Source of the DNA: Actinomyces respiraculi | GTDB taxonomy: Bacteria > Actinomycetota > Actinomycetes > Actinomycetales > Actinomycetaceae | Assembly: GCF_014595995.2 (NCBI RefSeq) | Contig: NZ_CP063989.1 | Span: forward strand, 1,364,001 to 1,428,000 | DNA length: 64,000 bases | Reading direction: 5' to 3' | Shown: piece after piece, positions 16,102 through 21,106 of the stretch | Position numbering within the stretch: the stretch's first letter is position 1 | How the letters are laid out: each line of letters begins with the position of its first letter | The notes under the pieces: generated by a model | The model's input: the letters and a program-made list of their open reading frames with translations, nothing else | Database searches by the model: none | Told to the model about the DNA's origin: nothing | Translations under genes and position numbers: made by a program

Positions 16102-18213
16102 ATGACCACTGAGGTCACAGCTTCTGCCACCGCTGAGAACGGCGCTACTCGCGACGCTTGGGAGGGCTTCGAGAAGGGCTCCTGGTCGGAGGGCATTGAC
16201 GTCCGCGACTTCATCCAGCGCAACTACACCCCCTACGCCGGCGACGCCTCCTTCCTCGCCGGCGCCACCGACAAGACGCTGCGCCTGTGGGACCACCTCG
16301 AGGAGAACTACCTCAAGGAGGAGCGCAAGGTTCGCATCCTCGATGTCGACACCGACACCCCCTCGGACATTGACGCCTTCCCGGCCGGCTACATCTCCGA
16401 GGACGACGACGTCATCGTCGGTCTCCAGACCGACTCCCCCCTCAAGCGCGCCATGATGCCCAACGGCGGCTGGCGCATGGTCGCCCAGGCGATCAAGGAG
16501 GCGGGCAAGGAGGTCAACCCCGACGTCGAGAAGATCTTCACCCACTACCGCAAGACCCACAACGACGCCGTCTTCGACATCTACACCCCGCGTATCCGCG
16601 CGGCCCGCTCCTCCCACATCATCACCGGCCTGCCGGACGCCTACGGCCGCGGCCGCATCATCGGCGACTACCGTCGCGTCGCCCTCTACGGCGTTGACTA
16701 CCTCATCGAGGAGAAGCTCAAGGCCAAGGACGCCGTGGCGGACAAGCCCTTCTCCGAGCACTGGGCCCGCTACCGCGAGGAGCACTCCGAGCAGATCAAG
16801 GCCCTCAAGAAGCTCAAGAACATGGCCCAGTCCTACGGCTTCGACATCTCGGGCCCGGCCACGAACGCCCACGAGGCCGTCCAGTGGACCTACTTCGCCT
16901 ACCTGGCCTCGGTCAAGTCCCAGGACGGCGCCGCCATGTCGATCGGCCGCCTGTCGGCCTTCCTCGACATCTACTTCGAGCGTGACCTCAAGGCCGGCCT
17001 CATCGACGAAACCCGCGCCCAGGAGCTCATCGACAACATGGTGATGAAGCTGCGCATCACCCGCTTCCTGCGCACGACTGACTACGACCAGATCTTCTCC
17101 GGCGACCCGTACTGGGCCACCTGGTCCGACGCCGGCTTCGGTGAGGACGGCCGCTCCCTGGTCACCAAGACCTCCTTCCGCCTGCTCCAGACGCTGCGCA
17201 ACCTCGGCCCCGCCCCGGAGCCGAACATCACGATCTTCTGGGACGAGCGCCTGCCGCAGGGCTACAAGGACTTCTGCGCCCTGATCTCGATCACGACCTC
17301 CTCCATCCAGTACGAGGCCGACGAGCAGATCCGTGACCACTGGGGCGACGACGCCGCCATCGCCTGCTGCGTGTCCCCGATGCGCGTGGGCAAGCAGATG
17401 CAGTTCTTCGGTGCCCGTGTCAACTCCGCCAAGGCCCTGCTGTACGCCATCAACGGTGGCCGTGATGAGATGAGCGGCAAGCAGATCGTCACCGGCCTGC
17501 CCGGCATCGAGGGCGACGGCCCGCTCGACTTCGACGAGGTCTGGGACAAGTACGAGAAGATGCTCGACTGGGTCGTGGGCACCTACGTCGAGGCCCTCAA
17601 CATCATCCACTACTGCCACGACCGCTACGCCTACGAGGCCATCGAGATGGCGCTGCACGACTCTGAGATCGTGCGCACCATGGGCTGCGGCATCGCCGGC
17701 CTGTCCATCGTCGCCGACTCCCTGAGCGCCATCAAGTACGCCAAGGTCACCCCGGTGCGCGACGAGACCGGCCTCGTGGTCGACTACGTCACCGAGGGCG
17801 ACTTCCCGATCTACGGCAACGACGACGACCGCGCCGACGACATCGCCGCCACCGTGGTCCACACGATCATGGCGAAGATCAAGGCGCAGCCCTTCTACCG
17901 CGACGCCATCCCGACGCAGTCCGTCCTGACGATCACCTCGAACGTCGTCTACGGCCGCGCCACCGGCTCCTTCCCCTCCGGCCACCAGAAGGGCACCCCC
18001 TTCTCGCCTGGCGCCAACCCGGAGAACGGCATGGACACGCACGGCATGGTTGCCTCCATGCTCTCCGTGGGCAAGCTCGACTACAACGACGCCCTGGACG
18101 GCATCTCGCTGACCAACACCATCACGCCCCAGGGCCTGGGCCGCACGCTCGACGAGCGTGTTTCCAACCTCGTCGGCATCCTCGATGCGGGCTTCGTCCC
18201 CGAGGAGGACTGA
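16102..18213 (+). CDS. pflB: Pyruvate formate-lyase, catalytic subunit lacking the glycyl-radical domain
   Basis: Splits pyruvate with CoA into acetyl-CoA and formate in anaerobic metabolism. 703 residues, with the PFL barrel present throughout (WEGFEKGSW start) and the catalytic pair Cys422-Cys423 in IACCVSPMRVGKQ. The protein ends after NLVGILDAGFVPEED, exactly where E. coli PFL (760 residues) would continue into its C-terminal radical domain. The RVSGYAV glycyl loop is absent here and is encoded by the next gene. AGGAGG stands 6 nt before the ATG. Cysteines and upstream core look intact, so this is not simple truncation. It should need the small partner and the PflA activase encoded downstream. 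Confidence 0.95.
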   Translation: MTTEVTASATAENGATRDAWEGFEKGSWSEGIDVRDFIQRNYTPYAGDASFLAGATDKTLRLWDHLEENYLKEERKVRILDVDTDTPSDIDAFPAGYISEDDDVIVGLQTDSPLKRAMMPNGGWRMVAQAIKEAGKEVNPDVEKIFTHYRKTHNDAVFDIYTPRIRAARSSHIITGLPDAYGRGRIIGDYRRVALYGVDYLIEEKLKAKDAVADKPFSEHWARYREEHSEQIKALKKLKNMAQSYGFDISGPATNAHEAVQWTYFAYLASVKSQDGAAMSIGRLSAFLDIYFERDLKAGLIDETRAQELIDNMVMKLRITRFLRTTDYDQIFSGDPYWATWSDAGFGEDGRSLVTKTSFRLLQTLRNLGPAPEPNITIFWDERLPQGYKDFCALISITTSSIQYEADEQIRDHWGDDAAIACCVSPMRVGKQMQFFGARVNSAKALLYAINGGRDEMSGKQIVTGLPGIEGDGPLDFDEVWDKYEKMLDWVVGTYVEALNIIHYCHDRYAYEAIEMALHDSEIVRTMGCGIAGLSIVADSLSAIKYAKVTPVRDETGLVVDYVTEGDFPIYGNDDDRADDIAATVVHTIMAKIKAQPFYRDAIPTQSVLTITSNVVYGRATGSFPSGHQKGTPFSPGANPENGMDTHGMVASMLSVGKLDYNDALDGISLTNTITPQGLGRTLDERVSNLVGILDAGFVPEED

Positions 18214-18258
18214 CCCTCTGCGCCGCTCACCCGACGGCGCCCGCAGCGCACCTGCCGG

Positions 18259-18280
18259 GTGCCAACGGGGAGTGGCACCA
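18259..18280 (+). other. intercistronic hairpin between pflB and the glycyl-radical gene
   Basis: GGTGCCA (18259-18265) pairs perfectly with TGGCACC (18274-18280) around an 8-nt loop, in the 113-nt spacer. It is too weak to be a sure terminator. It could protect or process the mRNA so that the small subunit is made at a different level from pflB. Confidence 0.5.
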
Positions 18281-18326
18281 CCGACTCTCTGTCGAACACT
18301 CAACACCAATGTGAAAGGGGCCAATC

Positions 18327-18572
18327 ATGGCCACGTACGAAGAGCGCCTCGCCTCGATGAAGGCGCAGCGCGAGGACAATGGCGGCGTTAAGGGCCTGTA
18401 CCACGCCAACATCAACGTCCTGGACCGCAACACCCTCGAGGACGCGATGGAGCACCCGGAGAACTACCCGAACCTCACGGTTCGCGTCTCCGGCTACGCC
18501 GTCAACTTCGTCAAGCTCACGCGCGAGCAGCAGCTGGACGTCCTCAACCGCACCTTCCACGCCGGCGCCTGA
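18327..18572 (+). CDS. grcA: Stand-alone glycyl-radical subunit of pyruvate formate-lyase (GrcA/YfiD-like)
   Basis: 81 residues matching the C-terminal domain of [26 protein letters not shown] followed by RVSGYAVNF with the radical Gly56, then [15 protein letters not shown]. It starts with its own AAGGGG site and ATG, and has about 22 residues of charged leader not present in fused PFL. E. coli GrcA (YfiD) is a spare part that rescues damaged PFL; here the adjacent PFL has no radical domain of its own, so this protein is predicted to be obligatory. pflA follows after 24 nt. Confidence 0.93.
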
Positions 18573-19648: not shown

Positions 19649-21106
19649 ATGGCCAGAGTGGTCGTTCTGGGCGCGGGAGTCTCCGGTCACACGGCCGCGC
19701 AGCACCTGCGTCGCCTGCTTCCGCGTGAGCATGAGGTGGTTGTCATCAGCCCCAATTCCCACTGGAACTGGATCCCGTCCAACATCTGGGTGGGAACGGG
19801 GCGCATGCGTGAGGAGCAGGTCGTTTTCCCACTCGCGCCCATCTACAAGCGCAAGGGCATCACCTTCCATCAGGCCAAGGCCGTGGCGCTCCACCCGGAG
19901 GGCACCGCGACCGACGAGCGGCCCCAGGTGGAACTCGTCTTCACGGAGCCCGGTCGCGAGGGCGAGACCCGCCGCCTTGCCTACGACTACCTCATCAACT
20001 CCACCGGTCCGAAGCTGAACTTCGACGCCACCCCGGGGCTGGGGCCCGAGGGCGGCAACAGCCTGTCGGTGTGCACGGCGTCCCACGCCGTCCAGACGGC
20101 CGCAGAGCTGCGCAAGGTCATCGAGGCGGCTCGCGCCGGCGAGCGCCAGCGCCTCGTCATCGGCACGGGTAACGGCACCTGCACCTGCCAGGGCGCCGCT
20201 TTCGAGTACACCTTCAATGTCGACTTCGAGCTGCGTGAGGCCGGGGTCCGCGACATGTGCGAGGTCGTCTACCTCACCAACGAGGTCGAACTGGGCGACT
20301 TCGGCGTGGGCGGCATGCGCTTCCGCCAGGAGGGTTACCAGACCACCTCCCAGTTGTGGACGGAGTCGCTCTTCCGCGAGCGCGGCGTCAAGGCGATCTC
20401 CGGGGCGGCCGTCAAGCGCGTCGAGGAGGGCTCCCTGGTCTACGAGTCGCTCGACGGCAAGACCCACCGCCTCGACTTCGACTTCGCGATGCTCCTGCCC
20501 CCCTTCTCCGGCCACCCCATCAAGGCCTACAACCGTGCCGACGAGGACATCACCTCGACCGTCTTCGCGCCGAGCGGCTTCATGAAGGTCGACGCCGACT
20601 ACACCCCGCGTCCGTACGAGGAGTGGAGCGCCGACGACTGGCCGCGCACCTACCAGAACCCGACCTACCCCGAGCTGTTCGCCGCGGGCATCGCCTTCGC
20701 CCCGCCGCACGCCATCTCCAAGCCGTGCAAGACGCCCAACGGCACGCTCATCGCGCCCGCCCCGCCTCGCACCGGCCAGCCCTCGGGCACGATCGGCCGC
20801 GCCTGCGCCGAGTCGATCGCAGACATGGTGCTCGGTCGCGACAGGCCGCTGCACCACGCCTCGATGGCGGAGATGGGCGCCTCCTGTGTGGCCTCGACGG
20901 GTGCGAACCTGCTGACCGGCTCGGCCGCGGCGATGATCATGTACCCCGTCGTGCCCGATGAGCGGAAGTACCCGGAGACCGGCCGCCACCCCTACCACAC
21001 GCGTGGCGAGATCGGCCTCTTCGGCCACTGGATCAAGTACATGCTCCACCACCTGTTCATCTACAAGGCCAAGTCCCGGCTGGGCTGGTCCCTTCTCCCG
21101 GAGTGA
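19649..21106 (+). CDS. Sulfide:quinone oxidoreductase-like FAD flavoprotein
   Basis: 485 residues. FAD-binding start VVLGAGVSGHTAAQHL, an IGTGNGTCTCQGAAFE stretch mid-protein, and an amphipathic C-terminus (WIKYMLHHLFIYKAKSRLGWSLL) as used by SQR to sit on the membrane. Cysteines at 142, 178/180 and 360 are placed like the SQR redox cysteines. Predicted role: oxidise sulfide to polysulfide and pass electrons to quinone, for detoxification or energy. A related flavocytochrome or FCC-like dehydrogenase cannot be excluded. GAGGTGA stands before the ATG. A CsoR/CstR-like operator lies 58 nt upstream, and a small gene follows after 5 nt. Confidence 0.8.
   Translation: MARVVVLGAGVSGHTAAQHLRRLLPREHEVVVISPNSHWNWIPSNIWVGTGRMREEQVVFPLAPIYKRKGITFHQAKAVALHPEGTATDERPQVELVFTEPGREGETRRLAYDYLINSTGPKLNFDATPGLGPEGGNSLSVCTASHAVQTAAELRKVIEAARAGERQRLVIGTGNGTCTCQGAAFEYTFNVDFELREAGVRDMCEVVYLTNEVELGDFGVGGMRFRQEGYQTTSQLWTESLFRERGVKAISGAAVKRVEEGSLVYESLDGKTHRLDFDFAMLLPPFSGHPIKAYNRADEDITSTVFAPSGFMKVDADYTPRPYEEWSADDWPRTYQNPTYPELFAAGIAFAPPHAISKPCKTPNGTLIAPAPPRTGQPSGTIGRACAESIADMVLGRDRPLHHASMAEMGASCVASTGANLLTGSAAAMIMYPVVPDERKYPETGRHPYHTRGEIGLFGHWIKYMLHHLFIYKAKSRLGWSLLPE

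Follow-up and report, generated by a model that had tools for sequence, protein, structure and literature searches.

Can a pyruvate formate-lyase (PFL), an oxygen-sensitive fermentation enzyme, be divided into two proteins, one holding the active-site cysteines and the other the radical glycine? This question is raised by a locus in the 64,000-nucleotide stretch of Actinomyces respiraculi DNA that we analysed (contig NZ_CP063989.1, positions 1,364,001 to 1,428,000; hereafter the window). Here, a gene for the PFL catalytic barrel, a small gene for a glycyl-radical protein and pflA follow one another in the same direction (Table 1), with pflA starting 24 nt 3' of the small gene. Judged from its sequence, this PFL very probably works only as two subunits. 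An original prediction, made by a model from the DNA letters alone, had read the locus as a 703-residue PflB with a Cys-Cys pair but no radical domain, followed by an 81-residue gene with the motif RVSGYAV. The open reading frames (ORFs) and the Pfam cut agree with this.

The Pfam domain Gly_radical is divided between the two proteins: the large protein matches profile positions 1-65 and the small protein 65-106. In an alignment to E. coli PflB, a check that the original prediction had proposed, the two proteins tile residues 8-694 and 696-756 of 759, which places the cut at about residue 695. The large protein scores 1004.5 bits on the PFL model TIGR01255 (cut-off 994.2) and has the adjacent active-site cysteines of a PFL (CC at 422-423), but the radical glycine is not in the same chain. 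The match covers model positions 1-681 of 744, and the glycine lies in the small gene, which holds the one occurrence of RVxG[FWY] on the plus strand of the window. On the same model, a Corynebacterium large subunit (L175) reaches 977.8 bits, under the cut-off. The small gene lies in another frame than the large gene (offset 2). It was also predicted to have its own ribosome site, and the Shine-Dalgarno-like sequence listed in Table 1 is found upstream of its ATG. The small protein passes the cut-off of GrcA2 (NF008341; 167.2 bits, cut-off 145) and stays below those of GrcA3 (NF038360; 97.5 bits, cut-off 158) and GrcA/YfiD (TIGR04365; 84.3 bits, cut-off 170).

Table 1. Features of the split PFL locus, in window coordinates (aa, amino acids; SAM, S-adenosylmethionine).
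Feature	Position	Strand	Remarks
Large subunit, PFL catalytic barrel, 703 aa	16102..18213	+	TIGR01255; Cys422-Cys423; C-terminal NLVGILDAGFVPEED, at the point where a radical domain would be expected to start
Large-subunit codons 583-587	17848..17862	+	Ala583, Thr584 and His587 split-specific; candidate contact site
Spacer, 113 nt	18214..18326	+	Strong predicted hairpin; Shine-Dalgarno-like GAAAGGGG before the small gene
Small subunit, NCBI GrcA2 type, 81 aa	18327..18572	+	NF008341; Gly56 in RVSGYAV; predicted N-terminal helix
pflA, radical-SAM PFL-activating enzyme, 292 aa	18597..19475	+	TIGR02493, 296.5 bits, cut-off 231.75

Does the genome hold another PFL that the small protein could serve? 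The assembly is a single contig of 2,912,106 bases, rated 100% complete. It yields one match to PF02901 and two to PF01228, every one at this locus, and in the whole genome these searches found no other PFL or PFL-type radical domain. The full-length PFL that accompanies GrcA/YfiD in the same genome is thus missing. The obligatory character of the split, which a second intact PFL would have contradicted, is well supported by these searches. Across the family, 189 of 213 genomes match the large protein at E 1e-100 or better, with exactly one match each. As there is no full-length PFL to repair, the small protein, named GrcA2 by NCBI as a spare part, is most likely an obligatory subunit. As a separate observation, eight genomes of the same genus (G005, G012, G014, G044, G046, G051, G053, G060) have an extra match to a whole glycyl-radical domain beside the split PFL, in frames of 884-958 aa in six of them, 314 aa in G053 and 125 aa in G012.

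The same split was found in 118 of the 170 loci that we read, in sets that were partly picked to contain split and fused forms and in which some loci are one genome under two names. These comprise 70 of 90 family loci (30 from the same genus and 40 from other genera; the remaining 20 are fused), drawn from the 189 matching genomes so as to include both kinds with the other 99 left out, and 48 of 80 named loci (32 fused), the top 80 among at least 585 matches. Among these best 80, the nearest named relative is Actinomyces sp. AC-20-1, with a large subunit 97.9% and a small subunit 100% identical. Split genera include Actinomyces, Schaalia, Trueperella, Arcanobacterium, Actinotignum, Varibaculum, Propionibacterium, Corynebacterium, Dermabacter, Brachybacterium and Helcobacillus; fused genera include Bifidobacterium, Sanguibacter, Rarobacter, Cellulomonas, Tessaracoccus and Streptomyces. 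The GrcA2 cut-off is passed in 25 of 25 same-genus genomes and by 3 of 394 genomes in an even draw of the class, the window's own genome included, so the split is concentrated in certain groups. A further 20 loci of the class contained 2 split and 18 fused forms. Two split species (G100 and G114) belong to genera with fused members, which suggests operon transfer or replacement; G100 is 76% complete, with a 3.8-kb contig. A fused PFL in an Oscillospiraceae record (L204) falls inside the actinobacterial clade, by transfer or contamination. Open-frame lengths had pointed to PFLs of 800-850 aa with the two parts fused by a linker. These were an artefact: the long frame that surrounds the small gene in the loci read runs in a different reading frame.

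We based trees and counts on a reduced set with 94 split representatives, after removing 22 of the 30 same-genus loci, 14 of the 20 bifidobacterial ones, three that were partial and those with identical barrels. In all 94, the large subunit stops 5-15 residues past the glycine of NLVG(I/V)(L/M)DxG; the residue after this glycine is Phe in 90 and Met in 4. The active-site Cys-Cys pair is also kept in all of them. The fused sisters run from DAG to GLYHAN with three residues between and lack the extra helix. The 22 additional N-terminal residues that had been noted in the small protein recur at about this length in the split representatives and are well conserved (R7 in 94/94, M11 and R15 each in 93/94, T/S at 3 and Y/F at 4 in 94/94). 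In the AlphaFold2 model of the small subunit alone, residues 4-17 form a helix with a predicted local distance difference test score (pLDDT) of about 50-62, while residues 15-30, including the strand that must enter the barrel, stay below 50. The predicted model resembles YfiD (6owr) most.

Of 697 large-subunit positions, 5 combine conservation of at least 90% in the split group with no more than 30% in either fused group: S521, A583, T584, H587 and I603. Three of them lie within five residues (583-587); for this cluster, which was chosen only once it had been seen, P is about 0.002 given 155 variable positions. L188, the apparent re-fusion described below, retains A583, T584, H587 and S521. 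We also compared the N-terminus of the small subunit with the tail helix of the large subunit (TLDERVSNLVG). None of 300 column shuffles reached the observed score, and 4 of 53,850 windows from the long frames of the window reached the score of the tail, the tail itself counted. In 13 of 16 relatives scanned, the tail was not the best-scoring window. That the N-terminus is a copy of the tail helix is therefore only suggestive. A split-specific N-terminal extension of PflA was ruled out, as the fused relatives have this extension too.

The family name of the small protein invites another explanation, in which it serves, like other GrcA-type spare parts, to repair PFL that oxygen has cut, and the large protein is made complete by other means or is the product of a damaged gene. 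Both the NCBIfam name, autonomous glycyl radical cofactor GrcA2, and the likeness of the model to YfiD fit this. We nevertheless consider it improbable: there is no full-length PFL to repair and a single PFL match in each matching family genome, the score on the GrcA model is less than half its cut-off, and the large subunits all end 5-15 residues past the same glycine. In addition, pflA lies within 400 nt after the small gene in 89 of the 94 representatives; where the locus includes pflA, the gene lies at this distance and in the same direction in 89 of 90 split representatives and 53 of 54 fused ones. A full-length PFL might also arise if stop readthrough or frameshifting joined the two ORFs, which are adjacent and, in L188, lie in one frame. 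This is more improbable still, because the spacers, which range from -4 to 227 nt with a median of 56, fall about equally into the three frames (33, 31 and 30 of 94, counts that are independent of the chosen start); programmed readthrough was rejected on this ground. Every small gene starts with ATG, and 93 of 94 have a Shine-Dalgarno-like site (background 1591 of 8709 ATGs in the same loci), with starts assigned by a rule that favours this combination. Each of the three stop codons is in use. The original prediction had argued against a frameshift from the clean boundary and the separate start; these features, with conservation over many genera, exclude one.

A recent truncation of the large gene, or an assembly error, has a negligible chance of being right. 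Nothing beyond the missing domain itself speaks for it, and the boundary is the same in 118 loci from many genera, with the cysteine pair kept throughout the representatives; a split shared by this many loci excludes chance or sequencing error. In the window, the region 18205-18330, which spans the spacer, has a predicted fold of -55.4 kcal/mol (z -3.57). A hairpin is not a general property of the spacers: 21 of 77 spacers of at least 30 nt are at z -2 or below, mostly long ones, and the median z is -0.52. The hairpins of the window and of other long spacers are perhaps there for unequal expression.

When was the PFL split, and was the split ever reversed? In L188 (1687-4092; Corynebacterium sp. 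Marseille-P4321), loss of the stop codon and translation of the spacer join the genes in one frame. This seems to be a re-fusion, in a single record that could contain a sequencing error. Its product shares 55% identity with E. coli PFL (2pfl) over 731 structure-aligned residues. The ATG and Shine-Dalgarno-like site of the small gene remain within the fused frame, and L188 may still make a free small subunit. A quick tree of 149 barrel sequences requires two changes, one split and the one re-fusion in L188. A careful 67-row tree requires four and nests the fused Bifidobacterium and Sanguibacter-type clades among split ones, as does a careful 62-row tree. A single split clade that includes L188 was not rejected by the approximately unbiased (AU) test (p 0.25; 0.405 without Bifidobacterium). 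The trees thus allow one origin with several re-fusions as well as one origin with a single re-fusion. It is possible, but on balance unlikely, that the split is older than it appears and that Bifidobacterium, Sanguibacter and Rarobacter have re-fused their genes, as L188 seems to have done. The careful trees would agree with this, but the quick tree and the AU test do not demand it, and the proteins of these genera pass from DAG to GLYHAN via three residues, without the extra helix.

A second type of split was found with GrcA3. Of 396 genomes of the phylum, 21 pass the GrcA3 cut-off; they belong to families (f67, f88) outside the class of the window. All 21 have a PF02901 frame at the GrcA3 locus, which is the sole PF02901 match in 9. 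The remaining genomes have further PF02901 matches, some to full-length relatives, so the obligation is less clear there. All 19 GrcA3 loci fetched at full length are split (L262-L280; L257-L261 are also of this type). Here the large subunit stops shortly after VPxxLGK and carries a tail of 17-53 residues, with at least two cysteines in 18 of 19, as CC, CxC or CxxC. This is reminiscent of ribonucleotide reductase, which has a redox tail. The small subunit starts with the tail helix (e.g. VAPDQVDNLVSMLDGYAEEGGHHLNVNV) that is absent from its large subunit, and pflA is on the same strand in 16 of 19 loci, up to 1.7 kb away. A common origin of the GrcA2-type and GrcA3-type splits was rejected (AU p 8e-6), which suggests that PFL was split at least twice. 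Chain A of the Protein Data Bank (PDB) entry 38lb, a formate acetyltransferase of 739 residues without the radical domain, aligns to GrcA3-type large subunits through the cysteine tail and is of this type, not the Actinomyces type. Chain A of 38la (formate acetyltransferase, 687 residues) also lacks the radical domain and ends at the same boundary. A search with the small protein gave no match to a small-subunit chain of either entry, and neither is among the matches listed by Foldseek or VIA-align (library to April 2026).

How would such a pair work? We propose that the small subunit docks into the barrel of the large subunit and there provides the strand, radical loop and last helix that a full-length PFL holds in cis. 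PflA would place the radical on Gly56, from where it would move on to Cys422-Cys423 for catalysis. The N-terminal helix of the small subunit, which has R7, M11 and R15 on one side, probably serves as the handle for docking in place of the covalent bond that was lost, and it possibly contacts the split-specific patch 583-587. Oxygen would cut the small subunit at its glycine, and only the 81-residue protein would then have to be remade. The benefit of the split may thus be the replacement of the radical part after oxygen damage, and the E. coli repair reaction would be normal assembly in Actinomyces. Viewed more broadly, we see about an even chance that obligate two-subunit PFLs have arisen at least twice, cut at the same hinge, in which the radical is a replaceable cofactor as the normal state. 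The Actinomyces type would have gained a docking helix, perhaps a tail-helix copy, that reads the 583-587 patch; in the GrcA3 type, the tail helix would have moved to the small subunit and the large subunit would have gained a cysteine tail.

Several points weigh against an obligate pair of this kind. PMC8683613 reports that for E. coli PFL 1-695, which has the same cut, binding to YfiD was too weak to be measured and radical uptake 32-fold lower than in the oxygen-cleaved form, although the portion that became activated had full activity. The natural pair must have overcome these weaknesses. The N-terminal helix is modelled at low confidence, and its contact with 583-587 is a guess. In the model of L188, the blocks of the radical domain have a pLDDT of 43-71, and the tails of split large subunits lay against the wrong helix in its alignment. 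Formate is secreted by strains that include A. naeslundii, which bears only indirectly on a conversion of pyruvate to acetyl-CoA plus formate by the pair: the secreting A. naeslundii is DSM 43013 and the sequenced one NCTC 10301, possibly different strains.

The pair combines traits of known systems. Like the small subunit, GrcA/YfiD of E. coli (6owr) is a small protein, and the two have their radical loop and C-terminal helix in common. GrcA/YfiD is activated by PflA and restores activity to PFL without a working radical domain (PMC8683613, PMC12338860). GrcA/YfiD has 127 aa, a disordered N-terminus of 60 residues and a full-length PflB alongside; in contrast, the Actinomyces small subunit has 81 aa, a short conserved helix and a place in the pfl operon of a genome with no full-length PFL. 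The difference in role that the original prediction had drawn stands; the family itself had already been modelled by NCBI. The barrel, the Cys-Cys pair and PflA are shared with E. coli PflB (1h16), which is a single 759-residue chain with its radical domain. NCBIfam names both GrcA2, the Actinomyces-type small subunit, and GrcA3, the small subunit of the independent split, as spare-part cofactors. Unlike the Actinomyces type, the large subunits of the GrcA3 type are without the tail helix, and most of them have a cysteine tail. Class I ribonucleotide reductase likewise keeps its radical on a subunit of its own for use at a cysteine of the large one; its radical (tyrosyl, metal) and chemistry, however, are unrelated.

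Parts of this picture were already known, namely the GrcA2 family name and 38lb, a GrcA3-type large chain handled by its depositors. What appears new is the conclusion that GrcA2 and GrcA3 parts form obligate two-subunit PFLs and that the split occurred twice; no published report of a split PFL, and no biochemical work on the Actinomyces-type pair, was found in the literature searched, which covered few subscription papers. The oxygen-repair mechanism of PFL has so far been argued from an engineered, poorly binding E. coli pair (PFL 1-695 and YfiD). In many actinobacteria, a pair of this kind seems to be the sole PFL, which would allow a direct test of docking, trans activation and exchange after oxygen damage. 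Our results suggest that many of the proteins under the names GrcA2 and GrcA3 serve as subunits, not spare parts. Annotation that demands an intact radical domain could wrongly label split PFLs as broken.

In the window, pflA is followed by a gene (19649-21106) for a 485-aa flavin adenine dinucleotide (FAD) oxidoreductase with a weak, below-cut-off likeness to sulfide:quinone reductase. Stand-alone relatives of the small subunit are also encoded on three viral contigs (L254, L255, L256); no PFL-length ORF was found in the 8.2 kb around those of L254 and L255. A PHROGs search returned two families of unknown function.
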